From Gavia stellata (lineage: Eukaryota; Chordata; Aves; Gaviiformes; Gaviidae): a stretch of 64,000 bases of DNA. The stretch spans positions 129,122,668 to 129,186,667 of the forward strand of contig NC_082594.1 in the NCBI RefSeq assembly GCF_030936135.1, written 5' to 3'. The notes below the pieces were generated by a model. It did not search any database and was not told where the DNA came from. It was given only the letters and a program-made list of their open reading frames with translations. A program made the translations under genes and the position numbers. Of the stretch, positions 12,446-64,000 are shown one piece after another. Numbering within the stretch: the stretch's first letter is position 1; each line of letters starts with the position of its first letter.

Positions 12446-13286
12446 GAGCAACACCATTCAGTGTGACCTGGACAGGCTGGAGAGTTGGGCGGAGAGGAAC
12501 CTTATGAAATCCAACAAAGACGATTGTAGGGTACTGCACCTGGGGCGGAATAACCCCGTGCATCAGTGCAGGTGAGGGGCCGACCTGCTGGAGAGCAGCT
12601 CTGTGGAAAGGGACCTGGGAGTCCTGGGGAACAACAGGACGACCATGAGCCAGCAATGTGCCCTTGGGGCCAACAAGGCCAGTGCCATCCTGGGGTGCAT
12701 GGAGAAGAGTGCAGCTAGCAGGTCGAGGGGGGGTTATCCTCCCCCTCTGCTCTGCCCTGGTGAGGCCACATCTGGAGTACTGTGTCCAGTTCTGGGCTCC
12801 CCAGTTCAAGAAGGACAGGGAGCTGCTGGAGAGGCTACAGCAAAGGGCTACAAAGATGATTAGGGGAGTGGAATATCTTTCTTATGAGAAAAGGCTGAGG
12901 GACTTGGGCCTCTTAGTCTGGAGAAGAGAAGACTGAGGGGGGGATCATATTAATGCTTATAAATACTTCAGGGGTGGGTGCCAGGAGGATGGGGCCAGTC
13001 TTTTTTCAGTGGTGCCCAGTGACAGGACGAGAGGCAACGGGCACAGACTTGGTCATAGGAAGTTCCATCTCAACATGAGGAGGAACTTCTTTACTTTGAG
13101 GGTGGCAGAGCACTGGAACAAGCTGCCCAGAGAGACTGTGGAGTCTCCTTCTGTGGAGATACTCAGAACTCTCCTGGACACATTCCTGTGCGATCTGCTC
13201 TGGGTGACCCTGCTCTGGTGGGGGGTTGGACGAGATGATCTCCAGAGGTCCCTTCCAACCCCCATCATTCCGTGACTCTGTGATTT
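12446..13286 (+). mobile_element. CR1 LINE fragment, 5'-truncated, sense on plus
   Basis: This is the 3' end of a CR1 non-LTR retrotransposon. It starts near GACCTGGACAGGCTGGAGAG and ends in the CR1-type tail CATTCCGTGACTCTGTGATT. A broken piece of the ORF2 C-terminal region is readable around 12740-12930 (motifs [15 protein letters not shown] and [13 protein letters not shown]), with the frame shifting between neighbouring segments. The element is dead. It sits about 150 bp upstream of the CpG island of the next gene. Confidence 0.92.
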
Positions 13287-13669
13287 CTGTCATCTGGTAT
13301 GAGAGCGGGCAGACGGACTGACAGCACGATCTCGTAAGGCCCATCTCATTAAGAAATCGCCCACTAAAGAGACGGGTGTGGAAGGAAAATGTTTCCGAGC
13401 AGTGAGGCCGTGACAGGCGGTCCCTCGCTGCGGAGGCCACGCAGTCCCGGCAGGCGCCCGTAGGGAGTATTGGAGTCACTCAGCCCCTCTCGCTCGGCTC
13501 AGCTCAGTAAGCAATTCAGAGTCGGGACAGCGGCTGCGGGCTGACAGAGAAGAGCCGCGGTACACCTCAGCAGCCGTCCCTACCCCTCTCCCCTCCGCCC
13601 CGGCGCCGTTACTCGGCGGCCACCCCTGCCGCGGGCCCTGACAGCGGCGGGCGCTGAGGGAGGCCGGGG

Positions 13670-13688
13670 ACTACATCTCCCAGCATGC
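13670..13688 (+). promoter_or_regulatory. ZNF143/Staf (SBS) motif 1
   Basis: ACTACATCTCCCAGCATGC closely matches the established ZNF143/THAP11 promoter element, roughly ACTACAATTCCCAGCATGC. It lies inside the CpG island about 0.75 kb upstream of the start codon. Confidence 0.75.
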
Positions 13689-13733
13689 CGCGCGGCGGCA
13701 CAGCCCGGCCGGCCCGCGCCCCGCCCCGCTTTC

Positions 13734-13751
13734 CATGCTGGGAGCCGTAGT
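13734..13751 (-). promoter_or_regulatory. ZNF143/Staf (SBS) motif 2, inverted
   Basis: Read on the minus strand this is ACTACGGCTCCCAGCATG, a second match to the same element. It faces the first with about 45 bp between them, giving a convergent inverted pair. Confidence 0.7.
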
Positions 13752-14407
13752 CTCGCCGGAAGGCGGGAGGGGGGTGCGCGCGGGCTCCCGCATGCAAACC
13801 GCGGGCGCCGGTGGCGGCTGCATGACGGTCGGGCGGTAAACGGCCGCGCGCCGCCGCCCGCCGGTTCCGCGGGCTGGGGGAAGGCCGCGCTGCCGGGAGC
13901 CTCCGGGGTGGGGTGCGGGGGGTTACAGGCCAGCCTGCTCCACACGCCCCCCGCCCTGCCGCGCGTTGGCCGTCCCGCCGGGCCGGCTGTGCGCCGCTCC
14001 GGCCCCGGGCGGGCGGGCGGTCCTTTTCCGGAGGCGCCCGCGCGTGCTTCCCGCCGTTGCCTCCGCCTCAGGCAGCCTGCCCCGCGGCGGTGGGCGTGAG
14101 GCTGTGGGGGGGCGGCCGCTGCGCCTGTGCTGCTGTGGGCCGGGCTCGGCTGCCGCTGCCCTCGGGGCTCTTCTCCGGGTGGGCTTGAGCGGCTTCTCCT
14201 CTCCTTCAGTCCGGCTCGTGGAGCTCGTAGCGGGGCGGCGTGGTTTGGCTGAAAGCGTCCTGACGAAGCCGTGCTGGAAGAGCAGGCTGCCGCCTCAGAA
14301 GGTCTGAAGAGGAGGTCGAGGTCTTCCCTCCGCAGCCGCGTAGCGCTGGAGGTAGCACGGCGGCCCGTGGAAGGCGGTTAAACTCCTCGCCGGTCTGATA
14401 GCGGAGC

Positions 14408-14494
14408 ATGGGTGAAAAGCCATGTCCCTCTCTCGTGTCGAAAATCCTTGTTTTCTGCTGTTTCTGTTTGTCTTCCAAGCGATATTCATCCTGA
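14408..14494 (+). other. Overlapping upstream ORF, 28 codons
   Basis: An ATG with A at -3 and G at +4 (GGAGCATGG) lies 14 bases before the B4GALT3-like start, in a different frame, and stops at TGA inside the first coding exon. Its context is stronger than that of the main start (G at -3, T at +4). If the transcript includes it, it should lower main-ORF translation by forcing leaky scanning. Transcription start and any 5'UTR splicing are unknown. Confidence 0.55.
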
Positions 14495-14659
14495 TACTCT
14501 ACCGAGGTGGACCTTCAAATGTGTTTCGTGGGTTTTTAGACTCGCATCAGGCTCTGGATTACTCAAAACCTCACGATGTGTACACAAACCTCAGCTTGTT
14601 TACCCAAGCTCCTAGTGAAGAAGCTATGCCGTACTGCTCGGTGCAGTCACCAATATTTG
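14422..14659 (+). CDS. B4GALT3-like coding exon 1: anchor and stem
   Basis: It encodes residues 1-79 plus one base. It contains a Phe/Leu/Ile-rich membrane segment (FLLFLFVFQAIFILILY), the sequon NLS in the stem and the first disulphide Cys (MPYC). The donor is G|GTGGGT, phase 1. The frame stays open into the intron, so the donor was fixed by the VGP junction with exon 2. Confidence 0.9.
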
Positions 14660-17600
14660 GTGGGTATAAACCGGTAGTGTTTGAAATAGCTGCTTTGGTA
14701 CGTGATAACACGGAAGGCTTTGTAAATATAAGTATGTTTTTCAAACTTTCCCACTTTAAAAGTGGTATACTGATGTAATACTTACACTGACAAAACTTTC
14801 TCGTGTTCATTAACTCATTTTTATTGGTTATACGAGAAAAAGTATTTTACTGATCCGAAAACTTCCAACATTAAGGACTTGGCTACATAGAGATTGTAGA
14901 ACAAGAGCGAAAACAGTGCATGCTGTTAATACGAACATAGTAACACTTTTTACTTTTTCCTTGGCGGTCCTGTATAAAATGGGCCAGCGATTGTACTTCG
15001 GGAACTGCATAATTTTGATGTCTGACTCACTGTAACTCCTGGGTTCTTTATCTCAGCCTCATACCAAGCCTGTAGTTCAATATGAATTGATTAAGTCGGC
15101 TTTAAAGACCATTCATATGAGAATGTGGCTTGGCACCTTGCTCTTCATGGTGATCTTTTTGACCTATGGTTGTTACGCGTCCTTTAGACATAGAAACTTC
15201 TTTAGACTTAAAAATCTGGTCACAAGTTAATTTGTATTTACACTAGGACCAAATTAGAGCTGATCCTAGAGGCAGCATTAATCCGGCTACTGAACTACTA
15301 AAACAGTTGAGAAACTTCTAAGTAAATACAAAGTCAAACCCATAAAGCAAGTTTGTTGGTAGTAAAGTGGCGCATCTCTGGTAATAGTGAGTCAGTTCGA
15401 CTCAGCCAGCCAAGAATGGACGAGTTCTGTAAGCATGCACTTACAGCTGATTTGGGGATGCCTACTTCTTCAAGTACTGTGTAGTAAGTTACCCTTGCCT
15501 GGTTTTCCATACTGCACAGGTTTCTCCACATCTAAGTCTTGCATATAACTAGTCTGGGAGCACTACTTACTAGTTGCCCTGCTGTTCTAGGGAAGCTGAT
15601 CACTGCACGTGGAGCAGAGTAAGCAAACGGTTCACAGGTGGAAGTATTGTGGAAAGCCAGTGCTGTGGTTACTCTTGGTCAAGTTGCTTACTTTGGTTAG
15701 AGAACTCTCCTGGGACGCTTTGGATGAGCCTTTTTAGACTGCAATCTTCGTAATGATGCTTGTTCTTTTGGGAAGTTTTCTTCCTTCCTCTGTTGCTGAA
15801 GTTAAATGAAATACATGCAGTATGTATAACAAAATGGTATGATAACTTTTGGGTATATGCTTCAGCGTTTCCCTTGGAAACAGCTCTACTAAGTAAATAC
15901 TGAAATACTAATAGTACAGAGCCTTTTTGCACAGGCGCCAGTTGTAATGGTCTTAGTGCAGTCTCTGTTCATCACTAGCTACAGCCCATCGGTGCTTTTG
16001 GGAAGCTACAATTCTGTGTTTCAGACTTAATTGTTTTATTTGAAAAAGCACAGCAGAAACATGCCTGCATCCTGTTTGTCTCCACTACTGATGAGAATCC
16101 ACTGTCCTGAAAAGAGTCAAATGAGAAAGCTTTGGTCTCAAAAAAAGAAAAACAAACAAAACTAGGTGCAATTCTGTGCAGCTTGCCTGCAAACCATCAG
16201 ATAAGCAAGAGTAGTGACGTATATGGAGGAGGCAGATGCAGAATGAAATTACACTAAAGTAATCGATGCTCTTAGACCTCTTAGATCACTGCTTCTGCCC
16301 ACCCTTGAGAGCACTGAGAACAGAGGGGGTTGGCCTGCATGTGGTACTTAAGAGCTAAAATGAAACCAGAATGTTAGTTATAGACAGAAACAAACAGTAA
16401 AGTTGACTGGGAGAGAAAAAAAATATTAGGCAAAGTAATTGTGGAAGTTTTGCTGCATAAAAATTAGAGTTGAGCATGTGAAGCATTGTTGCTGTGAAAC
16501 ACAAACCCTTTGGAGCATTGATACAGATTCAGCTTAAGAAAAATGAGCGCTCTGCTACAATTTAACTTTTACTTGGTGATATTTCCATTTAAGTATAAGA
16601 AGTAAATTTTTCCTTCTGGTATTACTATATGCCAGCCTCTTCCGGTTTTGGGGTTTTTTTTCACCCTGAGAAATGCATGCTACTCTGCAAGGTGCTTGCC
16701 CTTTGTTTTGTATGTCATGGGCATATATGAATAGATACATAAATACTTTCATAATGTCTTGATTGGTTTTTATCATCTCTCATGGGACTGATCGCTCTTG
16801 GAAGCATTACATCAGCGAGAACGATACCTTTTAATATTAATTTAATAAACTCCATTAAATGAAATTTCAAATCAAGTCTGGAGGACTCCAGTCTCCAATT
16901 CAGAGCTGGTAATAAGTCACTGTGTCCACCCCAAAGCATGTTAAAGTAACTGGAAGAATGCCAAATGGCTTAAGTGGTTTCTGCATCAGGGCTTTTCTGA
17001 AATGCGGCACTTCTTCCACTTATGTATATAGTAGATCATTTTGATAACTGTTTGAATGTAAGATCAGCTTGCAGCTCATCTGTCTTTTTCCAGCCTCTTG
17101 AATCTACAGCATCTTGGTTCTTCCAGGGCTGTGGAATAAGAATTAAAGTATAATTGCTAAAGATGTACTAGAAGTTTTGCATCTGCCTTGGAGGAACTAG
17201 ACTCTTGCTGACTAATGTTACTTTTGTAATGCTTAGTGGTGTCTGTTGAACATTCTGTGACTGACAACTTGAAAATGGAAATTGTACTAGATATTCAGTG
17301 TCTTCACTAATATTGTGAACAAATTACTCAAGTTCCCTTAAAAGTTAAAGTTTCTACACAAATAACCAGTTGCCTGTTTCTCCCTTCTTTGTTTTTGGAA
17401 AAAGCAAAGTGCTTATATGCTAGAGTTGTGCTTATTCAAACTTGACAAAGTAGCATTTAAATTCAAAACCTGACTTTCTCACATGGCATGCAAGATGTTT
17501 TGTTTCGGTTCATCTTTTCCTCTTTCACAGGAAGAAGCTTGATGCCGGAAGACTGAGGTTTTTATTTTTTTTTAAGGGGTACTTTCATGCATGTTTTGCG

Positions 17601-20600
17601 CTGAACGACTTGGTTTGGCCCTTGAGGACTTTCATAGTTGCAAGTTCTGTCTGTAACTCTGCTGTTTTAAATAACGCTGATGCTATGGAAGAATTTTTTT
17701 CCATGCCCTTCTTATAGTAGTTACTCCCTTTCAATCCCGTCTGTCATAACCTTTTCATGAGTATGACTGTCTGTTGTGGTGATGAGTTGCTCCTGCTGTG
17801 TTTTCTAGTGGATGCTCTTCTACCAAGGTTTCTTTTCTTCGATTGAAAGAGAAGTAAAAAGGTGGTAATGCTGAGATTTCTTTTCAGCTGTAGTTGGGGC
17901 AGCCTTGTATTCTGTCATTAGAAACTGCTGCTGAAATTAAGGCTGTTGGTCTGCTATTTTTTTTTTTTTACTTTCATTCAAACAGTGGTAGAACTATACA
18001 AATGTGACTCTGTTAATGTAGCATGAGGTGCTGCACTTTGTCGGCAAGATACTCATTCATGCTAGTGTTCCTGTTTGTTGAGCTTGTGTAAATTCTGCTT
18101 ATTGTGGTTGAACTCAGTAGTTATAGCTGCTAACTCTAAATGTGTAGCAAGGAGTTTGGAAGTCATGTAGTTTCTTTCTTAAGATGGGATAGATCTGGTC
18201 AAAACCAACAGATCCCCCCAGTCAAATGCGTTGCCTGGAAAGTAAAGCAAGCAGGGAGTATGCTGTCACTGGCACAGCTAACAATACAGGCAGGGAATTG
18301 GGAGTTTTAACTCTACACACTAAAGTTTCATAGTAATTAAACGCCTTCTGTGTGATGGTACAGGCACAGAAAGAGCTTAGGAACCAGGCTGCGGAGAAAT
18401 TGCTTGCACGCTTCAGGGTGTTGATTCTGTACCTTGTCTGAATTGGGATCCTGTGCTTTCTAGCACGTCTAAGATGGGGTTTTCCTCCTTTCCCAAAGCT
18501 GTGCTTTAGCAGGTTTATTTTTCCCTATTTGGTCCAGGCTGCAACTGCTCTGTTCACATCTGGGATTTAACTGGATTACAGTGCATTAGCCTTTTGTTAG
18601 TTGGGCGGGAAGGAGACCTGAGAGCCAGAATTCAGCTTGTAGCCACAGAGCGTAGGGCAGCCAGAGGTTTGGGGGATGTAAGTCACAGACTAACTTCTTT
18701 TTTCTGTGTTTCCTTGGCATATACTAGATTGAGTTTCTGAGCTGAGTTGTTTGAGGTATGGAGCCAGGCAGCTCGGGAGAACATGACATCTTGAAAAAGC
18801 TGAAAAATGCAGATATACCTTCAAGAATTGTACGTTTGGGTATGGAAGGAGGCAACAGGAGTGAAACTATTGCACATTATCTTACTCATACTCTTATGTC
18901 CAAATTTAGATTTTATTTTTTTGGAATTTAAGGATTATCGCTAAAGAATCTTACTCTGCAATACAAAGAGCCCCGACTGTATTATAGGAAACAAAACCCT
19001 GCCTTTCTGGGAGAATAAAAGGGATTAATTCCCATTCTTTTATTTTCCTTGAAGCAATGATCTCTAGTTGAAATCCAATCCGAAAGTAACATTTCTAGCA
19101 AGCTCCGGTTATCATCAAATCAGTGGTTAATGGTGCTTTAGGTAAAAGATCTGATAATCAGGGAGTTCATAAATCTAAAAAGCAACATAAATTACAGGTT
19201 AAAAACAATGTTGGATTGAAATGTGGTGGTCTTTAAGGCAGAACAGGAAACTCTCTGCATTGAAGTAGGTAATAACATCATAAAATTTTAACAATAAACG
19301 TGACCTAGATTCATGGGCCCACAGCGTGATTCTCTGAAGAACTACTCTTCTGTTTCAGGTACAAAGGTATGGCAACGTACTCCAGTTCCCTACTGAGGGT
19401 AACACAGTCAAAATCAAATCCCCCCTGCATTTTAGATACTTAGGGAAGGATTGAAAAGTGATACTTAAGGTTCAGCTATTGCAAGATCTTGTTGACAAGC
19501 AAAATTCAGCTTTTCCTTTTAAAAACAAACAAAAACCAACCAACAAAAACAAACCATGAAATCACATTCACAGCAGCTACACCTTTTTGACAGTGTGAAG
19601 AATGGGATCACCGGCTGTTCTGACCGACCTTCAGGAGATGCCGTTATGTGTGTTCCTTGAGGAGGAAAAGGAGATCAAGTATAGGTTTGCCTGTCAGAAA
19701 TGTGAGATATCCCAGCTTCCACATCCTAGCAAAATGTTTCCCAGTTCTGAATGGACAGCTTGAATCTTATGCCAAATTTAGTCCCTAAGCCTTGTCAGTG
19801 CTCAAAAAAGAAAAAAAAAAAAAAAACCCAAACAAAAAACAACCCACCCCCACCACCAAAAAAAATAGTGGAGGGATGTTGCTTCCTTCTGTGTCAGTTA
19901 AACAGGATGTGGGTGAACACAGACTCAATTTTTTTTTTATTAGAACTGTAGCAGAGATGTGAATGTAGGATGGGCTGGAAGAGGTATCTTCTGGACTCAC
20001 CTGCTTAAATATTTAATTAGACTTAAGACACCCATACCTTTCCCTGCTCAAATGAACTAAACACCAGGCTGAAATATTTGCTCTTTCTCTCTCAGGCTTC
20101 ATTATCAGAAGTTTTTTGAAAGAATAATTTATTTCAGTGGTTTAAGAGGGAGTCTGACTTACAAGATACTGAAAACTTGCTTCAAGAGAGCCATAGGATT
20201 AACTATGAGCTTGGAAGGAAAAGAAAATCTTATCTACAGCTATTTAAAAACCCCAAAACCCTAACAACTTGCCTCACAGGCTTCTGGTGCAAAAAATATT
20301 TTGTCTTTAGGTAGCATGGCCTGCAGAGAATTGTTGGTCCTACTTAAAGCTGTCATTTGAAATTGTCAGCTTTTAATTGTGATTTAAGTAAAGGGTTCCT
20401 CTAGCTCATTTAAGTAATACATTTTAATCTTGTTCTGCATTTGTGCTTTATTTTCTTAGAAGTTGACAGTGGTTGGAAACTATTAAGACAAACTGATTTG
20501 TCTATTAATATAACTCTTCTGCTAATTCTGGAATCTTTTCTCACTACCCAGAAGGAGAGGTATTTAAATAATTGTAGAATTTGTTTATTCATATTATTAC

Positions 20601-23600
20601 AATGTGAGACTTGTGTTAAAGTGGTGATTGACACTTTATATTGATTTTTTCTTACTTGTGACTTGTCAAGATTTTTTCCATCTGAAGAATGGAGGAATTC
20701 AGATAAAAATGCAGATTATTTTTTTTAATTAGGTAAAAACTGTTAAACATACTGGATATGCTTTGCATTTTAAATCAAGGTGCTGAGTAGAGGAACTATC
20801 ATATGTAGTTTCTTTCTACCCTGCACCTGTTCCTGAAAATACATAACATCTCTCTTCTTCCTTCTCAGTTCTTTTTGTCTGCTTTTCCCAAGACTTTGAA
20901 GTACTGCCTGTGTATAATGTCTATAATTAAATAATATAGCAAATTCAGCCCTTGTGGCGTGTGATTATAACATCAAATTGAACTTGAAACTTTTTTTAAG
21001 GTAAAGCTACCATTTCCTAGAGCGTTTGTATTCATGCAGGCTTTAAACTACTTCTCCCCCAATCTGCTGAATATCCTTTTGGGCATCTTTGTCCTTGAAT
21101 CTCCTCTGAAAGAGGCTTAGAGACATTTTCCATATGGGTAGCAAAAGCAGTTATGTCTGTTCATTTTGATTCATTTTCAACGCTATTCTTACAGTGAATA
21201 GATTTCTCCAAGGATCCCATCTAAGCAACACAAGGCAGAAGGTTTGCTTGTGTAGTAGGGAGCCAATACCAGGAAAAAGCAAGCTGTGCGGGAGCCCCGT
21301 GAGGCTTGCTGTCTGTGCTGGGACTCGGGGTGCTGCTCTGGCAGGTCACCTGCCGGCCTGATGCTGAGCCCGGCACCCCGCAGTGGGGAGGTAACCCTCA
21401 GGCAGGGTGGAATTCATCGTGTGGGCACATCTGCGTGGTGGTGTTAACTGTTCCATGCTAGAGTAGGGCTGGTGTCTTTAGTAAACATACGTAGCTAATC
21501 TGATAGGCTTGAATGAAGGTTGAGAAACATCACTGATCTTACTTTTATTTTTTTCCTGTCTCTCCTTACAGTTGGTCCATTAACCATCACCTTCAGGGTG
21601 CTCCCTAGTGAAAGAATGATCATAAAAAAAAATCCTTTTGTTCAGCCTGGTGGCCGCTACAGGCCACCTCACTGCTTGGCCCGCTACAAGTCAGCCATCC
21701 TTGTAGCCTACAGGAACCAGGAGAAGTACCTTCACCATCTTCTCTACTATATTCATCCTTTCTTGCAGCGCCAGCAGCTCAGTTACAGTATCTACCTGAT
21801 TCAGCAGGTAAATCTAAATCAGATGTGCCTGGTGGTGTAGCTGAGCTTCCCAGTTAAGGGTTAGGTTTTGACCAAGAAATGTGAATCTTCTTACATGTAA
21901 GTATGGTTTTATGCAGAGCAGGTCAGTTAGATGCTGTTCCATCTCCATGGCTGCTAATGATTGAAATATCATACCACTTGTCAAGATCATCATTCTGCTA
22001 TTGATTTTTTTCTACTTTTTTTTCTTTTAGAGGGATAAAGTTGTCATTAAGTGGTAACTTGTATTTTCAGTTCAAGAGTTGAATGTGATTTGTCTGTAGC
22101 TTGTCAGTGTGGCTACTGAGCAAAACTGTTGAGACTAAATGCTGAAGTGAAGTTGAGTATTTTTAGTCTTTATCAAATAAAACCATCTGGCTTGACCCTG
22201 CTGTGGGGCAATCTGTGCAGGTCAAACAGTCATTTCTAACTGACGTGGACTGGTGTTGCAAAAGATCAGTGGTGAGAGAACAAGTTTTGGATTCATTAAT
22301 TAAAACTGATAGATGATTGGGAGGGAGAGGAAGCTTTTTTGTTTGACCAAGATCTGTTTTCTCATTTCTAAGCTTTAATGAGCAGTAGTCAGGGCAGAAG
22401 TGTTGATGTGCAGATGTACACCTGAGGATTGACTTACTGGTCTCTTAAAAAGTCAGCTTCCTTCAGGTGCCCACGGTATACAGACCCTGACACAACAAAG
22501 CGTACAATTGCTGAGAATACTGTGAAGGGAATGGGTGAAACTTTCAGAGTCTGGGGCATGAAATTTGCGGCCAGTATTGATTCATTCCAGTGTCATTCAA
22601 TTGAATAAGGCTTTTTTACTAACATAAATTTTAATTGAGTTATCCTCTTTGTTGTTTTGGTGAAGAAATGTAGGTTTTCTTTTCCAGGTGGGGAATGGTA
22701 CCTTTAACCGAGCAAAGCTGCTTAACGTTGGTGTCCGAGAAGCCCTGAAGGATGAAGACTGGGACTGCCTTCTTCTGCATGATGTGGACCTAGTACCTGA
22801 GAATGATTATAATCTCTATGTTTGTGATGAATACTATCCCAAGCATATGGCTAGTGCCATGGATAAGTTTCAGTACACGTAAGTGCCTCCATTTGCTTTG
22901 GATATATATATGCTAATGGGTTCACTTTATGCATAGAAAGTATGAATGGGGACAGTGAAAGATCTAACCTTTTAAGAGGGTTTGTGTTTGTTTTGCACTA
23001 GTGACTTTCCCAGAAAAGGGTATTCTTGACCTAAGCATGCAATCTTGAGCGGTTTCTTGCCTGCAGTTCTCTGTTCCACTGATAGGTCAGCTTGGTGACA
23101 AATGACTGGCAGATTTCTGTTTGCCTTTCCTTCCAGAATAAAAGTGTAGGGTGGGAATTACTGGATTACGTGGAAGATGTCTGATAGGATGCAGGTATTT
23201 TGAACTAGCCCAAGCTGTGAATTTCAAAACGAGCTTTTCTTTGGTCTGGCGGGGGGGGGGGAAACCATGGAGGGGGACATCACATGATAGAAATGACACT
23301 GGTATTGCTCTTTTGGGTTTTAGCACTGTCATGACTGTAAGGTATGCGATTAATATGTGTGTGACTTGGATCACTTTGCTAGTATGTGGAGGACTGGTAT
23401 TAGCCTTCAATATTGATGCTTTTTTTTTTTCTTTCTCTTTTAGTCTGCCATATAAGTCCTTTTTTGGGGGTGTATCTGCTCTGACTCCAGAACATTACAT
23501 GAAGATGAATGGGTTTCCAAACACGTACTGGGGCAGTGGTGGTGAAAATGACGACATTGCTACAAGGTACTAGTGCACAGGACAGGCTTAAAATAGAACC

Positions 23601-26600
23601 AGGCTGGCTAGTGAAACATGTAGCATTACCCTAAGAAAGGAACCAAGATGATGTTCCTTAACGTGCTTACAGTCTCGTTATAATCCAAAAAGCTGGTGGT
23701 ATTGGGAATGGTTTATGATGTCAGAAGATGCTCGGAATCTATGAATCCAATTATTGTGTGCTGGGAGGACAGAGCTTTTCTCAGATTTTGGAGGGTGGAA
23801 TGTTACTTCACATCCTTCTGCCTTCAGTTGCTCTGGAGCGTACAAGGGGTTAGAACCACCAGTAGTTGACAAGTGACTCCATTGACATTAACAGCCCCAA
23901 GGGAAGGAAGGAATTTGCAAGCTTGACGAATAAGAAAAGCAAGAAGGTACTTAGTAATTCTCAGACAGTTGGGAATTTAAGTTATGTTAAGTGCATCTAG
24001 GTTGCTCCAAGTATTACCTAATCACCACTACTTGGAATTAAGGAACACAGGGAATTCTAAGGTCTGTCTTCAGTGCTGGGTGATGGAGAAGCCTGGGTAC
24101 TATTGTGAGTCAGTGACAGCAAGAGCTGATGTTTTTTCTTGTACTTCAGTTGCCATGGCAGCAGCACGCTATAGAAATGAATACAATGAGTTTAGTTCTA
24201 GGTACTCTGCCTAATGCAGAGTACAAAATCATGGTTGTAGCTTCTTTATTCAGCTTTGTAGTTGCACTGTGCACCTTCATCATCCTGCACTGAGGCAAGC
24301 TCTTGGGGAGTTTATAAAACTAAACTGACAATAAAAGCCTCTTGTGTGTTTTTTGGTCTTGCACAGTGTGACAAGTTACACAGTTCTGGTGGAATGTTCT
24401 GTTTGAGGAGTGTAGGAGTTTTTACAAAGCAGTATTGTTATGGGAATTGAAAGTCAGATTTTCTAACATAGAATTCCTCCTTTTCCTTTCAGAGAAAGCT
24501 AACTAAAAGGGTGTATGATTGTTTAGAGATTTGGCGTTTACTAAAGGAATGGAATGCCAGGAAAATAGGTCTTTACATCAAACACTACAATGCTGGGTCT
24601 ATTCAGCTGTTCTTAGTACAGCTTAGGCATCTAATGTGGTTTTCAGTACCGGTGGTAGAGAGTCATGCCAGTTATGCATAGGAGTGTAAGCAGGTTATGT
24701 AAATCCCAAAATAGCCCTTTCTTGAAGGGAAATAAATCATGTGTTGTTTCTTTGAAAACTTACACTAATGATGAGCAATGTTCTGGCCCATAGGTACCTG
24801 GAGGCCACGGACAGTGCCTGTTCATGATTTATTCACATACTGAAGCCTCAACCTGCAGAAGTTAGGAATGAGCTGGCTGGTTTTGAACGGCCAGCTTGAT
24901 GCACCTACTGGGATTTGGATTGTAGGAGGTGCTCAAGCACTTCTTACCATGTAGCAACACAATTAATTAGTATTTGAAATTGGACATTGAAATGTCAAAA
25001 AAAAAAAAGTCCTGTGTAAAGATTTTCTTGCTGGGATACTGCTTATTAAAGCAGAGTTAGTGATAAAACATGCTGGCTGCTACTTACAGTTGGCAGACTG
25101 CAGTACTCTCTAATGTTAGTCCTAGCAAACACCAGGGTCTACCTTTTATTAGAAGAAAACACTACTCTGATTGGAACCACTTATGTGTTAACATTATCCA
25201 CTACAGGAAAGTCTGTTGGGTTCTTCTTAACAGTAAATGAATGTATTAACTGTTTTGTATTATGGTTTTAGTTTAGTCTTGCACTGCAAAAACTGTAACA
25301 GCAAAGCTAGGTTAGCATTCTTGCCTTTTCTTTTTGATTGAATGTGCAATAAGCTTATCTTTAGAAAAGAAGAAACCTTGCCTGAAACTCAATCTGAAAT
25401 AATAGTACTGTCAATGAAGTGTTGTAATCATTTGATGGCTCTGGACTAACAAATATTTTCAGTTCTGTAGCTTCTTTCGGCTATATAACATTCCTGCTTC
25501 AGTGCAGCTTGCTGCTGTACCAGATCTCAACGGAAGGCAATCAAGTGTTGCAAACATGCCAGTTAGATAACCTCAGTTGAGCAAACATTCATTCTTACAT
25601 TCACAGGAATTTTCTCTGCCTAAGAGCTGCCCTGTGATAACGAAGGTTTGCTAGCCCTAGTACTGTTACAGGCACTTTTTATTGGTAAACTAACATAGAT
25701 GCCATCAGCACTGGGTAGCTTGAAAGTCACCCCAAATGCTGGTTTTAGGAGCTCTGTTCTGGAATTCTGAGCTTTCAGTTCCCTTTTTTCTTATCTGTCT
25801 TGCAGCTGAGCAGCTCATACTTTTTTGTCTGGTGCCTGTATTTGTCACTAATCTTTTATGAAGCCAGTCCTCTAATCGGGCCATCTGAATGAATGGCATT
25901 TCTCAAAGAACAGAGAGAGGCTTAATCTGGATCTGAAACTCAGGACTGGCTTCCTTTCAGAAACTGCAGGTTTGGTTTGTTGGGTTTTTTTAAGTTTAGG
26001 TAATGGGCCTCTAGGCAGCAAAAGCTCTGCTTCTACAAGGAAGTGAAAATAATGCTCAATTGTCAGATTCATGGGAGTTGCTCCTGACTGCTCTGTATGC
26101 TGTTGTTCATTCCCTGCTTGCTATAATCCTCTTTGTACCCTGTCAAAGTGCACTGCAGCTGGGAGCTTTCTAGCCTGAGCCTGATTAGAACCTGCTAGAG
26201 AAGATAACATGGCACTGTGGGGTTAAACTTGCTCCCTTCAGCTTCTGCATTTTGCTTTGATTGCATTAACACTGAAAAATCATCTCTGACTTTGAATTTC
26301 CTATAACTAAGCCTAGAAACAGCATCTTTATGCCTAAGCAAACATTTTGTTTGTTGTTTTAAAGGATTCAGTTAGCAGGAATGAAAATAGTTCGGACATC
26401 ACCTCACCTTGGACGCTACAAAGTGATGGACTACAATGAAGAGACAGAGACACAAGAGCCTTGGAGAAGGTAATTATTCTGGGGGGGCAGTTAGGAGGCT
26501 ACTCTCTGCCTTGTGGCAGGTTGACTGTTACCATCATCTTCCTCAGAACAGGCAGTAAGTATACCTAATGCCACTGCTTCTTGTTCTGCTTGATTGTGGC

Positions 26601-27586
26601 TATTTAAAGAAGGCTTCCAGTCAGTTTTAACCGAATCATTCTGCTTCTGTCTCTGCATTTGAAGGGTTTCCCCTAGTTTCCTGGTTTTTTCCTATTGTTA
26701 AGGACCTGTGCTAGCTAGGAAGCTAACACATAGCAGACTTAAGCATCAAATTCTTCAGGGAATAAAACTTTAAAAATAATAGCACCTGACTTGTAAAGAG
26801 GGAGAGTTCAGGTTGAAGAGGAGCTTTGTTACAAGGTCCCTATAATAAAAACTTGCCCTTCAACCTGTGGATTTACAAAGTGCCATTAAAACAGTGGAAA
26901 GCAGCATTCTAGTTTGAAGACATGAGGAAGGTGCTATGAGAACCTTAGCAAAGACTCAGTTTACATGAAGGAGCTGGAGGAGGGGGTTAGGTCAAGTGTG
27001 GTGGAGGCTTCTCACACTGGCAGTGCAGACTTCCCTCTATCATCTCAAAACTCAGGTTTCCATAATAACCCTGTCTTAAAAACCTACCTACAGCAGCCTG
27101 TGTACACTATTGCTGCAAGCCTCTGCGTTGCGCTCCCAGGTCTCACTAAGCTGCTGCCAGTTTCTTGGTTTTTTTGCACACTGTAGTTGTCATCTCACTG
27201 GTCTCCCTGTCTGATCAGGTTCCAGTCCAAATTATCTTCCTTGTTTAGAATACTCAGTATGAACTTAGTCTAATCTGTTTAGTCTGATAAATGCTTTCCC
27301 TCTCTAGTCTGTATTATGTGAGAAGAATTTCCTTGGGGCTTTTCTGCTAGCAGCTTTCACCTGCTAAGCCCTTGCCCCCTCTGGAAGTCTGTTTCTTCTG
27401 CAGCTTCAGCTGCAAACATCACCTTTGTTCTCTTCCTTTTTCAGGCCTACTTCCCGACACGACACCAGAAAAACATGGAAGGATGATGGAATGAATTCGT
27501 TAGAATTCAAGCTCCTTTCCAGGACAAAGCATCCTCTTTATACCAACATCACTGTGGATATTGGATACGTTCCCCCATTTTCTTAA
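14422..27586 (+). CDS. B4GALT3-like protein, divergent active site (probable pseudoenzyme), six coding exons
   Basis: The coding exons are 14422-14659, 21572-21807, 22688-22878, 23444-23566, 26365-26469 and 27445-27586, total 1035 nt, 344 residues plus stop. All junctions are GT-AG and keep frame. The start aligns with the B4GALT3 N-terminus (MxxxxxExPC). The architecture is a short cytosolic tail, a Golgi membrane anchor (about residues 11-27), a stem, then a GT7 domain. The closest family member is B4GALT3, from DYSKPHDVYTNLS, PGGRYRP and [19 protein letters not shown], but the long Pro-rich B4GALT3 tail is missing. Retained are Cys72/114 and Cys185/204 (family disulphides) and [10 protein letters not shown] (residues 189-198). 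Changed, in bovine B4GALT1 numbering, are P187A, F188Y, R191Q, Y289F, W314S, D318N, M344V and H347Y. UDP-Gal transfer is therefore unlikely by the normal mechanism. It converges on B4GALT4 downstream. It could instead be an enzyme with altered chemistry. Confidence 0.92.
14660..21571 (+). other. Intron 1 of the B4GALT3-like gene
   Basis: This is a 6.9-kb AT-rich intron. It holds an A-rich low-complexity stretch at about 19804-19866 and T runs near 17960. No repeat family, nested gene or second promoter was recognised in it. Confidence 0.7.
21572..21807 (+). CDS. B4GALT3-like coding exon 2: nucleotide-binding start of GT7 domain
   Basis: It encodes residues 80-158, ending [18 protein letters not shown]. 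The canonical VPHRxRE / IPFRNRQE motif that contacts UDP reads VAYRNQEKYL here, so Pro, the aromatic/His position and the second Arg are all changed. The acceptor is CTCCTTACAG and the donor CAG|GTAAAT, phase 0. Confidence 0.9.
22688..22878 (+). CDS. B4GALT3-like coding exon 3: DVD motif
   Basis: It is 191 nt, the same size class as the B4GALT3 exon and one codon longer than the B4GALT4 exon here. It carries [10 protein letters not shown], the metal-binding HDVD motif and the second disulphide pair (WDC...YVCDE). This is the best conserved part of the protein. The donor is AC|GTAAGT. Confidence 0.92.
23444..23566 (+). CDS. B4GALT3-like coding exon 4: flexible loop with W and D lost
   Basis: It is 123 nt, identical in size to the B4GALT4 exon. 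FFGGVSALTPEHYMKMNGF is canonical except Phe for the acceptor-site Tyr. The loop motif [10 protein letters not shown] reads YWGSGGENDD, so the conserved Trp and the catalytic Asp are replaced. The donor AG|GTACTA is weaker than the others. Confidence 0.9.
26365..26469 (+). CDS. B4GALT3-like coding exon 5: metal-ligand region lost
   Basis: It is 105 nt, the same size as in B4GALT4. It begins IQLAGMKI like other family members. The segment normally MVKHRGDKGNE then reads VMDYNEETETQ, so both the Met and His metal ligands and the basic lid segment are replaced by acidic residues, with no gap in the alignment. Confidence 0.9.
27445..27586 (+). CDS. B4GALT3-like coding exon 6: C-terminus
   Basis: It is 142 nt including TAA, identical in length to the B4GALT4 terminal exon. 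It retains TWKDDGMNSL and HPLYTNITVDIG, with a conserved sequon NIT, then ends abruptly after YVPPFS. Confidence 0.92.
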
Positions 27587-28050
27587 GAGAATGAAAGCAG
27601 AGTTTGGGCTCAGCATGGCAGCATGCCTCTGGGTGTTCAGCCTCTACTGCCTGGTGTGTGTCCGCACCACTTGAGACTAATCCTTTTGTCTTTCAAGCAT
27701 TTCACTTCTGACTATTTCAGATCTAGAAGAAAAGGCTTCAGCAGTAGGGTGTGATAGCTAATAAACAGGCTCTGGCTTACTGTAAAAATTGTCCAAGCAC
27801 TGTATAACCAACTGCTGAGCCAGACCCACCTCCCGGTCCTTGGGGAACAAGGTCTGCTTGAGAGTAAGCTGACCCAAGTTTTCTGGAACCTTTGTTCCAC
27901 AGCTGGATCACTCTGTCCTGCTGCATACTTAAGTGTTAATGGGGGTGCAAGCTGTGGTGTCAGACAGGCCCCTGAAGTGCTCTATTTTGAGAAAGGGTTA
28001 AAGCCAGGTACAGTTCTGTAAATATCTTTTGTGAATTTAAGTAAAATAAA
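27587..28050 (+). terminator. 3'UTR and poly(A) signals of the B4GALT3-like gene
   Basis: AATAAA occurs at 27760-27765 and again at 28045-28050, 0.17 and 0.46 kb after the stop. The second lies in an AT-rich context (GTAAAATAAATTGAG) and is the likelier main site. Confidence 0.55.
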
Positions 28051-29729: not shown

Positions 29730-29871
29730 TTATGAGATCTTGGGCTGCATGCTGAAATCCACTGTGATGTTGACATATAAAGGGTTATGTTCCACTGAGA
29801 GCAGTTTATACGAACAAGAGTTCAGCCCATCTGTTTTCCACGTTCTAGATACCTGACGTAGAAGCTTCATC
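29730..29871 (-). CDS. B4GALT4: B4GALT4 terminal coding exon
   Basis: It is 142 nt including TAA. It encodes [19 protein letters not shown] and [11 protein letters not shown], then a tail (SMQPKIS) longer than the human WFGA ending. The acceptor is TTGTCCTCAG. Confidence 0.93.
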
Positions 29872-32800
29872 CTGAGGACAAAAAGGAGAAAATCTTCATT
29901 GATATGCAAACGAGAGGAGTTTTGAGCTCTTTCCCGTGACTAGTAAACTTGGAGGCAGAGCTGCAGCCTTCCTGTATCTGCTGGGAATGTAAAGTCATGC
30001 TTTTCCTGTCCTCAGCAAGTCAGACACAGGGGGAAAAAGGCCTTTGGTTTAATCTCTGAAGTCATATACTCAAAACATATCCATGTAACCGTAACTTTGG
30101 AAGTTTGTAAGGAACATTATCCGGTCAGTTCTAGGCAGATCTCATGTACAGAACAAGAGCTGCCAGCTGTGAACAGGGGTGTCACACGGGTGTCCCCCAG
30201 GGCCTCTGGGTACCACAAAATGCCCATTTGGCCTAGAGCAAAGAACCTGGCCCTCAGGTGCCTGGCTCCCAGTCACATACCAAGACAATGCAAGGTGGAA
30301 CACTGTTCTTGACTCACCTCTCTCCGTTCTCCTCATTACCGTGGTCTCGTTTGTGGAAGATCATCGTGTACCTGGCTACATCAGCAGATGGCCTCACCAC
30401 TCTCATCTTCTGCATCTCAACCCTGGAAGAAGCAATAGTGCCATGAGCAAGACATCACCTATAAACAAGCTCTTAAGTAAAAAAAGAGCCCAACATTTGG
30501 AGACTTTATCTCTTGTAGATGCCATGGAAGCAAGCATAGAGAACTGTAAGAAACTTATCTGTGTCTCTTCCACACCGATTTTGCCAGAGAAATGGGGCTC
30601 AGAGTTGCATTTCTGGAGAATAGGTCCAGTAGGGTGACAGATACCCCTTTCTTTTGAACAGAAGCTGGTAGCTACCACAGTAGAGGTTGTGTAGAGCTTT
30701 AAGCACACATTATACAACAGAGTACATTTAAATTAGTATTGTCTGGTCTAGTTTGTACTGCCCTGTATTAACCTAGGAGGTCTGTAGCAGGATTCCACAC
30801 GTTTTGCAACAAGTTCATCTCAACTCCTGCAATAAAGCTCCTATACTTGGTAGTTCTCCACTTAAAAAGGAAAAAAAAAGCTTGTTTTCTTTTTTAATAG
30901 CTGCAAAGTTTTTGTTTGTTCACATGAAGAAAAATTTCTTGGAGAACAGTACCAGAAACACTAAGCCCTGTGCATGGATTTAAGTATCTGACATCAGGCA
31001 CTTGATTGGAGCTTTTGACCTTAAACATATATGTGGAGCACAACAATTTTGCTCTGTCAGCAGAAAGGGTTAGCTTCATGACAATGGAATTAAGGAATAA
31101 GCCTAGGTCTTTGCTAGTCACATCAGCAGCTGAAAGAGCAATAGGAAACTACGAATTGAAGAAACTGAGCCCCTTACAGATTTCCAATGGCTGTAGCAGT
31201 AAATTATCAAACAAATACAACAAACTATCTGAAAAATCTCTTTGGCATGCACACCTTAGGAAGGGGCCCGAAAGAGACCACCACATTTAGCACAGAGGCA
31301 AAGCGGTAGGACCTGAGAGCACTCTTGAAGTTCTTGAAGATACCGAAGGGGCTGCTGCCATCTGCTGTCTTCGCAGAGGAAGGCTGCAAGGATCTCCATC
31401 CAACACCCCACCGAGACAGCAAGCTTCCCGTTGCCTACCCGCTGCAAACTCTGTCACCAGCCCAGTCCAAGACCCACCCAAGAGGAAAGGCATGAGCCAA
31501 GCCCAGTTGCAGTGCGCGTTCTGGGTCACACAATGTGGTTTCCTCACCAACACCACAACAGCTGCAAAGTTAGGAGGCACCACATGCGAGCAAGCATCGC
31601 TTTTGAGTCCAATCACTTGCAAACATTGTGGAGACCCTCAATAAATCCTGCTGATCTGCTGCACAGCTGGTTCTCTGCCGCCCACAGAAACATTTGAAAG
31701 AACACCGCTATCACCTTTGTCCGCTCATTAACTGTGACGCTTCTCAGGACGCTGGGGAATAAGATGGTACCAAGCCATCCCCTACCACTATAAAAGCCAG
31801 CTCCCAAGAGGTCACAGAGAAGACGTTGGTGTCTCTAGTGAGAAGTAGGGAGAAATGAGAAAAGTTATGATTAAGAAGGGACAGAAACCCATGTCACCAG
31901 CAGAGCTTTTAGATTTGAGATACAGCTGACTGATCTGCTGAACTGACACAGAGAACAACTTTCATTTGGAAGTTCCTAACTTTAACACACTTGATTTCAC
32001 CAGTGTAGTTATTTAGTATCACCAGCAGTATGAATTTTATGTCCCCCAAATGTTTGTTTACACATTTAAGCAATTGAAAAGGATAAACGTTTAAGACTGA
32101 CAGAGTATACCCAAGTTACAAACTGACAGGCTCTGCCAGCAGAGCTTGCGGGGTTGTGGGGTGGTTTTTTTTTAGTTGTTGGGGATTTTTTTTTTTTCCT
32201 TCCTCCACTAGCAGCAATGCAGGATTAGAGGTTTCTTCCTAGGCAAAAGATCAACGTAAAACTTTTGTTGACTCCTTTGTGCCACTAAAACTCTCAAACT
32301 AACAAGTTTCTCCTACATTGACAGGCATGTCTGCAAAACTGGTTTTAACAAGAGCAAAGGGCATATGCATATACAAGCAGTCTTTCTAAAATTCAAGTTA
32401 TTCACTATCTTAACTATAATCAACACCACCCACATACAAACTAAGCCCTGCTTGGAATAAATCATGGTAATCAATGAATGCGAAAAACCCAATCCCACCA
32501 AAACCAAAACACTCCCATGCTCTTCTCTTGCAAAGTACCGGAAGTCAATACTTGTGTCTCTTTGGCAAATCACACTCCAGACTTAAATCATATTATTTCC
32601 ATTATAACCAATTTCCAAGTGAGAATACAAATACTGTGTAGCTGAGACAAAAACAAAACAAAGCAACTGGAAAAAAAACCCGCAACAAAGCCCACACCCA
32701 ACCAACAATGCTGTCAGGAGGAGGACCAGGTCTCAGGCACGCCTAACCTCTTCAAAGAGGAAACCATTCACAGAACTGCGTCACACACTCCAAAATCCCA

Positions 32801-50721: not shown

Positions 50722-52423
50722 AATCACAATCACAGGATGGCTGAGGTTGGAAGGGACCTCTAGAGGTCATCTGGTCCAAGCCCCCTGCTCAAGCAGGGCC
50801 ACCTAGAACCAGTTGCCCAAGACCGTGACCAGACAGCTTCTGGATATCTCCAAAGATGGAGACTCCACAGCCTCCCTGGTCAACCTGTGACAGGGCTCAG
50901 TGATCCTCACAGTAAAATAAGGGTTTCCTGATGTTCAGGTGGAATCTCCTGTGTTTCAGTTGTGCCTATTGCTTCTGGTTCTGTTACTGGGCACCACTGG
51001 CTCCATTCTCTTTGCACCCTCCCTTCAACCATTTATACACATTGGGAAGTTCCTCCCTGAGCCTTCTCCAGGCTGCAGTCCCAGTTCTCTCAGCCTTTCC
51101 TCATAGGAGAGATGCTCCAGTCCCTTCAGCATCTTCATGGCCCTTCGCTGGGCTCTCTTCAGTACTGGGGAGACCAGAAATGGACATGGGACTCCAGGTG
51201 TGGCCTCACCAGTGCTGAGTAGAAGGGAAGGATCACCTCCCTCGACCTGCTGGCAATACTGTGCCTAACGTAGCCCAGGATACCACGTGCCTTCTTTGCC
51301 GCAAGGGCGCATTGCTGGCTCACATTCAGCTCGGTGCCACCAGCCCTAGGTGCTTCTCTGACAAGCTGCTTTCCAGCTGGGTGGTCCCCAGTGTGTAATG
51401 ACGCATGGGGCTGTTCCTCCATCTGGACGGCAGCACGACCCTCTGGAGTATCTGCCGCTCTTCGCTATTTGGTGTAGTGTGCAAACTTGCTGAGGGGACA
51501 GTCTGCCCCATCATCTACATCATTAATGAAGATGTTAAACAGGACTGGACCTGGTATTGACCCCTGGGGTGCACCACTAGTTACTGGCCTCCAACTAGAC
51601 TTCATGCCACTGATAACCACCCTTCAGGCCCAGCTGTTCAGTCAATTTTCAATCCACTTCACTCTCTGCTTACCCGGCCCGCATGTCAACAGCTTCTCTA
51701 TGAAGATCTTATGGGAGACAGTGGTCGAAGGCCTTCCTGAAGTCCAGGCAGACAATATCCACTGCTCTCCCCTCGTCTACCAGGCCAGTCACTTCATCGT
51801 AGAAGCTTATCAAATTGGTCAAACATGACTCCCCCTTGGTGAATCCATGCTGACTACTCCTGATGATTTTCTTGTCCTTCACATGCCCGGAAATGGTTAG
51901 CTGCTCCATCACCTTCCGAGGTATCAAGGTGAGGCTGACCAGCCTGTAGTTCCCTGGCTTGTACTTCTTGCCCTTCCTGAAGGCAGTAATGACATTTGCT
52001 TTCCTCCAGTCTTCAGGCACTTCTCCCAGTCGCCGTGATCGATCAAAGATTATCGAGAGTGGCCTCGCAATGACATCAGCCAGCTCCCTCAGCACTCATG
52101 GGTGCATTCTGTCGTGGCCCATGGACCTATGTATGTCCGATTTGCTTAAGTATTCCCTGACCTCTTAAGTAATCCTCTTCAACTACGGAAGGGTTCATCT
52201 TCCTTGCTCCAGCCTTTCCTCCTGGTCTCTAGAACCTGGGATTCTTGAATCCCAGTCTTGCTAGTAAACACTGAGGCAAAGGCGGCAGTCGGTAGCTCAG
52301 CCTTTTCCATGTCCTGCGTAACCAAGTCCCCCATCCCACTGAGCAACAGGCCCACATTTTCCCTTGTCTTCCTTTTGTTACCTATGTACTTACAGAAGCC
52401 CTTCTTGTCATCTTTGATATCCC
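50722..52423 (-). mobile_element. CR1 LINE fragment, about 1.7 kb, in the B4GALT4 5' intron
   Basis: It begins on plus with the reversed CR1 3' region (CACAGGATGGCTGAGGTTGG, then AAGGGACCTCTAGAGGTCAT). It extends into the reverse-transcriptase region of ORF2. On the minus strand at 52095-51709 a piece of the RT domain is readable, with motifs PEDWRKANV, YRLVSLTLIPRKVMEQL, QHGFTKGESCLTNL and DFRKAFD. Beyond that the frame is broken and the catalytic core downstream is scattered over different frames. It is the least decayed CR1 in the window but not functional. Confidence 0.93.
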
Positions 52424-63500: not shown

Positions 63501-64000
63501 TTACCCGCTTGTTTGCTTGAGGCTTTCAGAGCAAACTCGAGAGGCGTAACTTTCATCAGCACGGGTCAGAAGGTGCCGGCGGCCCCGCACGCCCGGGGTG
63601 TGCGTGGCTGGCTGCCAGAAGCCTGCCGGGTCTCGGCATTTGCGGGACTGCAGAAGTACCAGGGTTTTTTGAAGGTGCAGGGGAGCTTTGAGGGCCGTGG
63701 GCGTGACAGCATTTGCATTGCTGGTGCTCATTAAAAGTGGAGAGTTTCACTTCCTCTCAAAATGTGTTCTCTTTAGCACTTTTTTACAGCGGAACTAGGT
63801 GAGGCTTGGCAGGAGTTCTTAGGCTCTCAGAAATCAGAACTTAAGACACCTGCTTCCAAAACCTAACTGCTCAGGAAAGAGAAAGGTGTTCCCCTCTTTA
63901 ATCCTGAGTGGAATCACAAACGGGCTTCTTGTGTCAAACCCTAACAGTGCAGGCAAAACCCCTTCGAGGGTGCGTGCACACGTGCAGATGGCTGCAAGCG
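63501..64000. other. Sequence right of the CpG island, nothing recognised
   Basis: No coding, RNA or repeat feature can be supported. Composition falls back to genome average by about 63720. Confidence 0.5.

Follow-up and report, generated by a model that had tools for sequence, protein, structure and literature searches.

The window analysed here, a stretch of 64,000 nt from Gavia stellata, carries on its forward strand a B4GALT3-like gene of six exons between 14422 and 27586, which join to 1035 nt with no internal stop and encode a protein of 344 aa. All five introns are of the GT..AG type, with phases 1, 0, 2, 2 and 2, and this structure bears out the first-pass annotation of an intact six-exon gene. 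Exon 1 (14422..14659) encodes the cytoplasmic tail, the membrane anchor and the stem with sequon N56, and exon 2 (21572..21807), where the luminal domain begins, holds C176 and the substitutions P187A, F188Y and R191Q. R228, the DVD motif (252-254), C247 and C266 fall in exon 3 (22688..22878). Exons 4 (23444..23566, 123 nt) and 5 (26365..26469, 105 nt), both in frame, contain respectively Y289F with a degenerate Trp loop, YWGSGGENDD (W314S, D318N), and M344V and H347Y with a degenerate closing lid, and exon 6 (27445..27586) supplies the C-terminal part with sequon N332 and the stop codon. A CpG island, the presumed promoter, overlaps the 5' end of the gene (13201..14600, no strand assigned); its GC content is 0.56-0.80 and its CpG observed/expected ratio 0.70-0.98 in 400-base windows, compared with a ratio of 0.24 deeper in intron 1. 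The first AATAAA past the stop, a possible poly-A signal, is at 27760..27765 on the forward strand.

Tail to tail with this gene, with 2.1 kb between them, lies B4GALT4, an intact paralogue of the active type with its CDS at 29730..44051 on the reverse strand (exons 44051-43784, 42210-41978, 38396-38209, 33071-32949, 30422-30318 and 29871-29730). It retains PHRNR, WGGEDDD, M344 and H347, and its position 188 is H. An intact B4GALT3 is also present elsewhere in the genome (locus L006), and the idea that the window gene is B4GALT3 itself was therefore rejected. Pfam gave no match for 20 window ORFs outside the known exons of the two genes, and a six-frame look through the window for short motifs of ARHGAP31 and tetraspanins found none.

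The window protein scores 184 bits for Glyco_transf_7N and 82 bits for Glyco_transf_7C (cut-offs 27 and 23), which places it in the GT7/B4GALT fold family, and it conforms to the B4GALT1-like tertiary fold. It has sequons at N56, N161 and N332 and a predicted membrane helix at about residues 9-27 (9-27 in the falcon model). The falcon protein is of equal length and 94% identical, and sequencing or splicing error was rejected for this reason.

Residues of the catalytic site are numbered as in bovine B4GALT1, anchored on the solved W314A mutant chain. All eight substitutions that the first-pass annotation listed, namely P187A, F188Y, R191Q, Y289F, W314S, D318N, M344V and H347Y, are present in the window protein, and the lid is altered too, at the conserved residues D350, N353 and N356 and at F360 and I363, which bind the acceptor. 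Position 188, however, is no family constant: among the intact B4GALT3 and B4GALT3-like proteins aligned, most have H or Y there. The Trp loop has S in place of W314, a residue described as strictly conserved in B4GALT1-7 (PMC6198961), and the metal-ligand set D254/M344/H347 now reads D254, V344 and Y347. On the other hand, the view that almost the whole catalytic site has been lost was overstated, since D252-V253-D254, R228, G292, E317 and D319 are retained, and the protein keeps 12 of the 18 active-site positions at which the intact family does not vary. The six that changed compare with 7 changes at 67 other invariant positions (Fisher p = 0.027, with a list of active-site positions compiled partly from general background). 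The four cysteines C134, C176, C247 and C266 remain, and the DVD motif, cysteines, sequons and anchor are indeed all kept in this protein, although for DVD the same cannot be said across the sauropsid clade.

As judged from the sequences, the window gene is a member of a separate B4GALT3-like clade, an old jawed-vertebrate gene related to B4GALT3, which comprises sharks, ray-finned fish, amphibians and sauropsids. In the quick tree this clade has an SH-aLRT of 93 and sauropsids join amphibians with 96, while the careful tree gives the sauropsid clade 100/100; the window protein thus groups with the amphibian and shark B4GALT3-like proteins, not with B4GALT3. The database matches considered were the best 120 of 1159, the best 120 of 3507 and the best 120 of 2495, and no mammal was named for the clade among the best 120 of 1159 and of 2495. 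Sauropsid orthologues come from birds, crocodilians, turtles, tuatara, lizards and snakes and include full-length proteins: 24 of the 51 cluster representatives have at least 340 aa (three of these, P0010, P0011 and P0039, with odd ends or inserts), and the clusters P0001 and P0038 stand for 287 and 146 sequences of birds and reptiles. The rows are 90% clusters and the counts given here are not species counts; moreover, intact models are over-represented among the database proteins. We assigned 38 non-sauropsid orthologue rows, including one invertebrate-looking protein (P0263). The trees and the active-site comparison used 22 of the 51 sauropsid representatives together with the window protein, fragments, isoforms, unnamed and odd-ended models being excluded by our own choice, and the coelacanth sequence, a partly degraded short isoform, was excluded from the careful tree and the intact-type set.

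Across this clade, the same residues are lost in birds, crocodilians, turtles, tuatara, lizards and snakes, as the first-pass annotation had proposed to check, and a recent decay confined to birds was rejected because the other sauropsid lineages share the losses. W314 is kept in none of 46 sauropsid sequences, compared with 36/36 other orthologues with a letter at the site, 73/73 B4GALT3 and 117/117 B4GALT4 sequences; the tree needs a single loss event, and nine different residues now fill the site in sauropsids. H347 is kept in 35 of 36 non-sauropsid orthologues, the coelacanth being the exception. Nearly all sauropsid sequences have F289 (44/46), which falls narrowly short in the fixed-difference test, and within birds A187 and Q191 occur in 11/11 rows and V344 and Y347 in 10/11. 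Other parts of the site are mostly retained: D252 in 39 of 51 sauropsid sequences (N in 12), D254 in 43 of 51 (N in 8), R228 in 50 of 51 and E317 in 41 of 44. Among 23 sauropsid rows, E317 is found in 20, R334 in 22 and Y286 in 20, and every letter present at position 359 is R (21 sauropsid rows). In the gharial, the EDDD stretch is one residue short. As far as residues can tell, the galactosyltransferase machinery is retained in the orthologues examined from amphibians, ray-finned fish and sharks, and in the coelacanth only in part.

The change in constraint is focused on the same region. Relative to amphibians, sauropsid diversity (20 representatives and the window protein) is shifted by +0.34 in the pocket and +0.26 in the closing lid, compared with -0.003 at the other 227 positions, and B4GALT3 has no pocket shift of this kind. 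Position 313 joined the 26-site active list only after the alignment was seen, whereas it is absent from the 12-site and 14-site lists, which come from papers; another sauropsid comparison used 17 representatives. By the set thresholds, none of 43 pocket and lid columns is newly tight in sauropsids, yet lid position 364 is tighter (0.27) than in amphibians (0.81). In its luminal domain the protein evolves at roughly twice the rate of B4GALT4 (2.04 vs 0.96; 13 representatives and the window protein). The ratio of anchor to luminal diversity is 0.55 in sauropsids (11 representatives), 1.66 in amphibian orthologues and 2.30 in shark orthologues; however, the active-looking amphibian B4GALT3 has a ratio of 0.24, at least as tight, so that a tight anchor is not unique to the sauropsid clade and is weakened as proof of an anchor-borne function. 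Galliform and passerine proteins are 81-82% identical; provided that the genome-wide dS published for such a comparison, 0.418, holds for this gene, omega would be about 0.25. Neutral simulation with 0.40 substitutions per site left 46% protein identity and a stop in every simulated copy. Taken together, the clade-wide catalytic loss and the constrained fold are, on these protein-level measures, those of a pseudoenzyme, and the earlier suggestion that selection has maintained the fold while the reaction was given up gains support at this level from the shared losses, the relaxation of pocket and lid, and the omega value.

Birds and reptiles apparently keep the B4GALT3-like gene under selection, and since its body is conserved as in the frog relatives while the working parts started to decay before birds and reptiles diverged, the protein probably works now without catalysing anything. 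The best explanation overall, which we hold with moderate confidence, is an ancient pseudoenzyme of sauropsids that serves in the Golgi as a partner or regulator without catalysis. In the simplest reading, the donor-clamping W314 of the Trp loop, Y289 and the metal-binding H347 would have been lost first, on the sauropsid stem, with later erosion of D318, the catalytic aspartate, of M344 and of the lid that binds the acceptor. The membrane anchor, the disulphides and the GT-A body stayed conserved through the sauropsid radiation of about 280 million years. The product would be a type II membrane protein of the Golgi (or ER), presumably incapable of normal beta-1,4-galactosyl transfer, which may act by binding another Golgi glycosyltransferase as its partner, chaperone, inhibitor or retention factor, with B4GALT3, B4GALT4 or B4GALT1 as the first candidates. 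The contact surface might consist of the anchor, the stem and the domain's unchanged body, and not of the face of the B4GALT1-type closed dimer, whose loops have drifted. A bolder version, that in the ancestor of living reptiles and birds a galactosyltransferase became a dedicated Golgi regulator with a tightened anchor and has controlled a living galactosyltransferase since, is tentative and in our opinion rather doubtful.

As D252, D254, R228 and E317 are present in the window bird and most sauropsids, residual nucleotide binding or weak activity may persist, and a new constraint may act on part of the former pocket because F289, the four bird residues A187, Q191, V344 and Y347 and lid position 364 vary so little. 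F289 and the four bird residues, with D319 as well as DVD, R228 and E317 all present in the window bird, could also mean that another donor, acceptor or mechanism is served in the old pocket through DVD, R228 and E317; according to PMC7185993, activity in GT-A families can survive the loss of the metal-binding histidine or of the xED aspartate. Such new chemistry is less likely, and we consider it unlikely as a full account, because the pocket drifts across sauropsids, with nine residues at site 314, N at D252 or D254 in several lineages, the gharial gap, and no newly tight column apart from the hint at 364. A second alternative makes the protein a structural partner, the second subunit of a B4GALT1-type closed dimer. 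The E317-R334 salt bridge at the rim, described as highly conserved in GT7 (PMC6198961), is mostly kept in the sauropsid rows, but E317 doubles as a donor contact, which weakens the pair as proof of dimerisation. This dimer is improbable here because the human B4GALT1 mutation H343A (bovine H347) is reported to abolish homomers in cells (PMC6198961), and H347 is gone; conservation at the interface otherwise says little, since its hydrophobic residues already differ in intact B4GALT3 and B4GALT4. Also hardly probable is a lectin or nucleotide-sugar sensor that binds UDP-sugar or terminal GlcNAc without transfer: against the retention of Y286, R359, D254 and R228 stand the loss of W314, a contact of both donor and acceptor according to PMC6198961, the changed F360 and I363 in the window bird, and a pocket still drifting, unlike a binding site under selection. 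Finally, a dying pseudogene that is open by chance in the window bird would agree with the active-site decay and the fast luminal domain, but is very improbable given the five introns and open frame, the many long representatives (including full-length P0007 and P0008, whose longest contigs are given as 2349 and 2357 bases, where the gene spans 13 kb here), the galliform-passerine identity far above the simulated value, a body as constrained as in amphibians, the CpG island, and the focus of relaxation on pocket and lid with 227 positions unchanged.

Clusters that represent several hundred bird and reptile sequences are named galactosyltransferase, and the protein is very probably not a normal one. 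We found no paper on the B4GALT3-like gene or on a pseudoenzyme in the B4GALT family in one open-access library, and this would be, as far as known, the first clade-wide pseudoenzyme among B4GALT1-7. Its frog and shark orthologues have an intact site and an intact paralogue lies 2 kb from it, so that it offers a clean natural experiment on the non-catalytic roles of a Golgi transferase; if the regulator reading is true, sauropsid and mammalian glycosylation would be wired differently at the step of galactosyltransferase control.

Among known systems, B4GALT3 shares the domain order, a related anchor and stem, and 53-57% identity over the rows listed, but it forms a separate clade, is intact in the same genome and keeps W314 in all 73 sequences assigned to it. 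The amphibian and cartilaginous-fish B4GALT3-like proteins (Xenopus 'beta-1,4-galactosyltransferase 3-like 1') belong to the orthologous clade with 57-62% identity in full-length rows; unlike the sauropsid members, which lost both residues, the non-sauropsid ones keep W314 and, with one exception, H347. CHPF, in the CHSY3/CHPF chondroitin polymerase, differs in being a polymerase subunit, much larger and no B4GALT. C1GALT1C1 (COSMC), the GT31 pseudoenzyme and chaperone of C1GALT1, is likewise a retained GT-A gene whose catalytic motifs are lost, as described in PMC7185993, but it belongs to another GT family and lost the DxD motif, which most sauropsid B4GALT3-like members keep. GnT1IP (MGAT4D), a GT54 homologue and MGAT1 inhibitor without shown activity in the account of PMC4572887, is similarly a Golgi membrane protein that resembles a transferase and binds a live one; it is of another family, and the same source describes its transcripts as mainly in mouse spermatocytes and spermatids and its inhibition as needing the luminal domain, not the anchor.

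The six exons of the B4GALT3-like gene on the forward strand (14422-14659, 21572-21807, 22688-22878, 23444-23566, 26365-26469 and 27445-27586) join into an open frame of 344 residues with zero internal stops and GT..AG at all five introns, which bears out the intact gene of the first-pass annotation. Both exon 4, which holds the Trp loop, and exon 5 form in-frame cassettes. Pfam finds both GT7 domains, B4GALT1 provides the nearest solved structures by sequence, and a CpG island lies over the 5' end at 13.2-14.6 kb (CpG observed/expected 0.70-0.98 vs 0.24 deeper in intron 1). As had been claimed, the neighbouring B4GALT4 (reverse strand, six coding exons, CDS 44051 to 29730), tail to tail with it and 2.1 kb apart, has an intact catalytic site.

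With numbering anchored on the bovine B4GALT1 W314A chain (solved structure), the window protein carries all eight substitutions reported earlier, namely A187, Y188, Q191, F289, S314, N318, V344 and Y347, though position 188 is no family constant. The accompanying claim that almost the whole catalytic site was lost holds for W314, D318, M344 and H347 but goes too far, since D252, D254, R228, G292, E317 and D319 are kept; R189, K279, Y286, V253 (hence the DVD motif, as described) and the disulphide cysteines 134, 176, 247 and 266 are likewise kept. Among 85 positions shared with bovine B4GALT1 and invariant (at least 97%) across 48 intact-type rows (protein clusters), 13 are altered (P135S, L141F, P187A, R191Q, H194Y, L202I, W314S, D318N, M344V, H347Y, D350E, N353T and N356P), thus affecting three modules, namely the Trp loop, the site for metal and donor, and the lid, or closing loop. 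Passages of PMC6198961 report that the Trp loop is strictly conserved across B4GALT1-7 and animal orthologues, that W314 contacts both donor and acceptor, and that lid residues M344 and H347 build the Mn2+ site together with D252 and D254; an excerpt of PMC4202792 reports from mutation of D318 or D320 that both are essential.

Three protein searches (best 120 listed of each) yielded 282 proteins, which were sorted by best identity to anchor rows into 51 sauropsid B4GALT3-like, 38 non-sauropsid orthologue, 73 B4GALT3 and 120 B4GALT4 rows. Two trees were built, a quick one of 73 rows and a careful one of 72; the B4GALT3-like clade (support 93 in the quick tree) comprises sharks, gar, bowfin, bichir, amphibians and sauropsids and stands beside B4GALT3, the sauropsid clade has support 100/100 (careful tree), and an eel sequence groups with B4GALT3. 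An invertebrate-looking protein, P0263 (eukprot Tk03317, 550 aa), also occurs among the best 120 of 2495 matches in the B4GALT3-like profile search and was counted, by identity, among the 38. No mammal is named for the B4GALT3-like protein among the best 120 of 1159 and the best 120 of 2495 matches, some rows being nameless, although mammals do occur in the database (seen in the B4GALT4 search); judged from the listed matches, the gene was therefore probably lost in mammals. A GT7 scan of the same genome found seven further family genes among its eight best matches, with nine weaker matches behind them: one is the B4GALT4 of the window, an intact B4GALT3 is on contig C33, those on C44, C10, C20, C3 and C16 would from resemblance be B4GALT1, 2, 5/6 and 7, and all seven keep the motif W-G-(G/R)-E-D-D. 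Canary, emperor penguin and condor records name the sauropsid B4GALT3-like gene 'B4GALT3' without '-like', so that bird 'B4GALT3' data may concern either gene.

The loss is old and clade-wide in sauropsids, where the same residues proved lost in the orthologues. W314 is kept in 0/46 sauropsid sequences, compared with 36/36 non-sauropsid orthologue rows, 73/73 B4GALT3 and 117/117 B4GALT4; H347 in 1/44 (a gecko), compared with 35/36, 72/73 and 118/119; and Y289 in 0/46, with F in 44. Retention is 13/45 for M344, 15/45 for D318, 7/49 for R191, 39/51 for D252 and 43/51 for D254, and the gharial protein misses one residue of EDDD. On the careful tree a single loss of W314 suffices, and the letter there changes 11 times overall. 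Sauropsid sequences now show nine residues at this site (D, S, R, H, T, K, A, N and Q). A short coelacanth isoform, P0108, has W314 and has lost R189, R191 and H347, perhaps because this gene decayed independently a second time, or because the gene model is poor.

Constraint was compared as per-column diversity in 21 sauropsid minus 13 amphibian rows. The difference is +0.337 in the active site (26 columns, p = 2.6e-7 against other columns), +0.257 in the rest of the lid (16 columns, p = 0.02) and -0.003 in the others (227 columns); the like comparison in B4GALT3 gives -0.001 (p = 0.19), +0.036 (p = 0.046) and -0.025. A 12-residue set taken from papers gives +0.342 vs 0.015 (p = 7e-4), and 14 contacts from passages of PMC6198961 alone give +0.304 vs 0.008 (p = 4e-4). 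With tight columns at 0.1 or less and variable ones at 0.4 or more, 17 tightened and 14 relaxed outside pocket and lid, compared with 0 and 17 inside (p = 8e-5). Overall, the body is under constraint equal to that of its amphibian counterpart, and the pocket is for the most part abandoned rather than rebuilt.

New chemistry in the old pocket would be favoured by the near fixation of F289 in sauropsids and of some replacements in birds, where 11 rows have A187 (11/11), Q191 (11/11), V344 (10/11) and Y347 (10/11), with 314 and 318 variable. For birds taken by themselves, the 12-residue set shows a diversity of 0.148 vs 0.108 for the rest, suggesting that the bird pocket drifts just modestly, and lid position 364 is tighter in sauropsids than in amphibians (0.27 vs 0.81). 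No fixed difference was found at the tight/variable thresholds, Y289F (44/46 sauropsids) narrowly missing, and we regard new chemistry as rather unlikely. Lacking W314, H347 and the lid motif, the protein cannot credibly catalyse the normal reaction by the known route.

More probably, the protein would partner or regulate some other Golgi transferase, aiding or inhibiting it, with no catalysis of its own; this explanation, the best one, we favour with some reserve, from the implausible catalysis, the expected delivery and known precedents. Excerpts describe transferase-like Golgi proteins working through a partner, namely COSMC (PMC7185993), GnT1IP (PMC4572887) and the heterodimer of CHSY3 and CHPF (PMC10570366). 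Human B4GALT1 with the change H343A (bovine H347) reached the Golgi in cells and formed no homomers, according to passages of PMC6198961; the anchor would thus be expected to deliver the B4GALT3-like protein to the Golgi, and by analogy a homodimer of the B4GALT1 type is doubtful. Most sauropsid rows keep the rim salt bridge E317-R334 (20/23 and 22/23), E317 doubling as a donor contact. Relative to the luminal domain, the anchor is tighter in sauropsids (diversity ratio 0.55) than in the amphibian (1.66) and shark (2.30) orthologues, which is a hint and no more, because amphibian B4GALT3 reaches 0.24.

Pseudo-glycosyltransferases are a known kind of protein, of which the B4GALT3-like protein, on its sequence, appears to be a new member. 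The one open-access collection searched yielded no described pseudo-glycosyltransferase in the B4GALT family; distinctive here are the sauropsid-wide extent, the outgroups with intact site, and the relaxation focused on pocket and lid.

Over 14 matched lineages, in 8 of which the species differ between the two proteins (once within a genus), tree length is 2.25 for B4GALT3-like and 1.62 for B4GALT4, being 2.04 and 0.96 in the luminal domain and 3.12 and 4.37 in the N-terminal part. Neutral simulation from the window coding sequence at 0.40 per site brought protein identity down to 46% and put a stop into each copy; an excerpt of PMC2911116 gives a chicken-zebra finch dS of 0.418. Galliform and three passerine B4GALT3-like proteins share 81-82% identity, matched in simulation at omega about 0.25, and a turkey-wrentit B4GALT4 pair 80%, all these being proxies distinct from codon dN/dS.

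For two database clusters with full-length proteins, P0007 (nameless, galliform by tree) and P0008 (bearing a goose's name), the longest contigs measure 2349 and 2357 bases, against a gene span of 13 kb in the window, so spliced transcripts are the simplest reading; we take the database label 'lgn' to mean assembled public reads. Isoforms P0012, P0014, P0019, P0020 and P0021 (301-304 aa) lack the exon 4 stretch with the Trp loop, and B4GALT4 probably has similar ones (P0211, P0212 and P0222, 311 aa), from length and a missing Pfam domain.

A second strong CpG island at 62400-63600 (GC up to 0.81, observed/expected about 1.0), has no gene assigned to it and zero Pfam matches on its ORFs; it may serve as promoter either for B4GALT4 or for the gene beyond. 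An interspersed repeat, which by eye looks like an avian CR1 element, has three copies 73-78% alike in aligned pieces (34041-35620, 12525-13255 in reverse, and 50743-52101), of which one sits in an intron of B4GALT4 and one a short way upstream of the B4GALT3-like CpG island.
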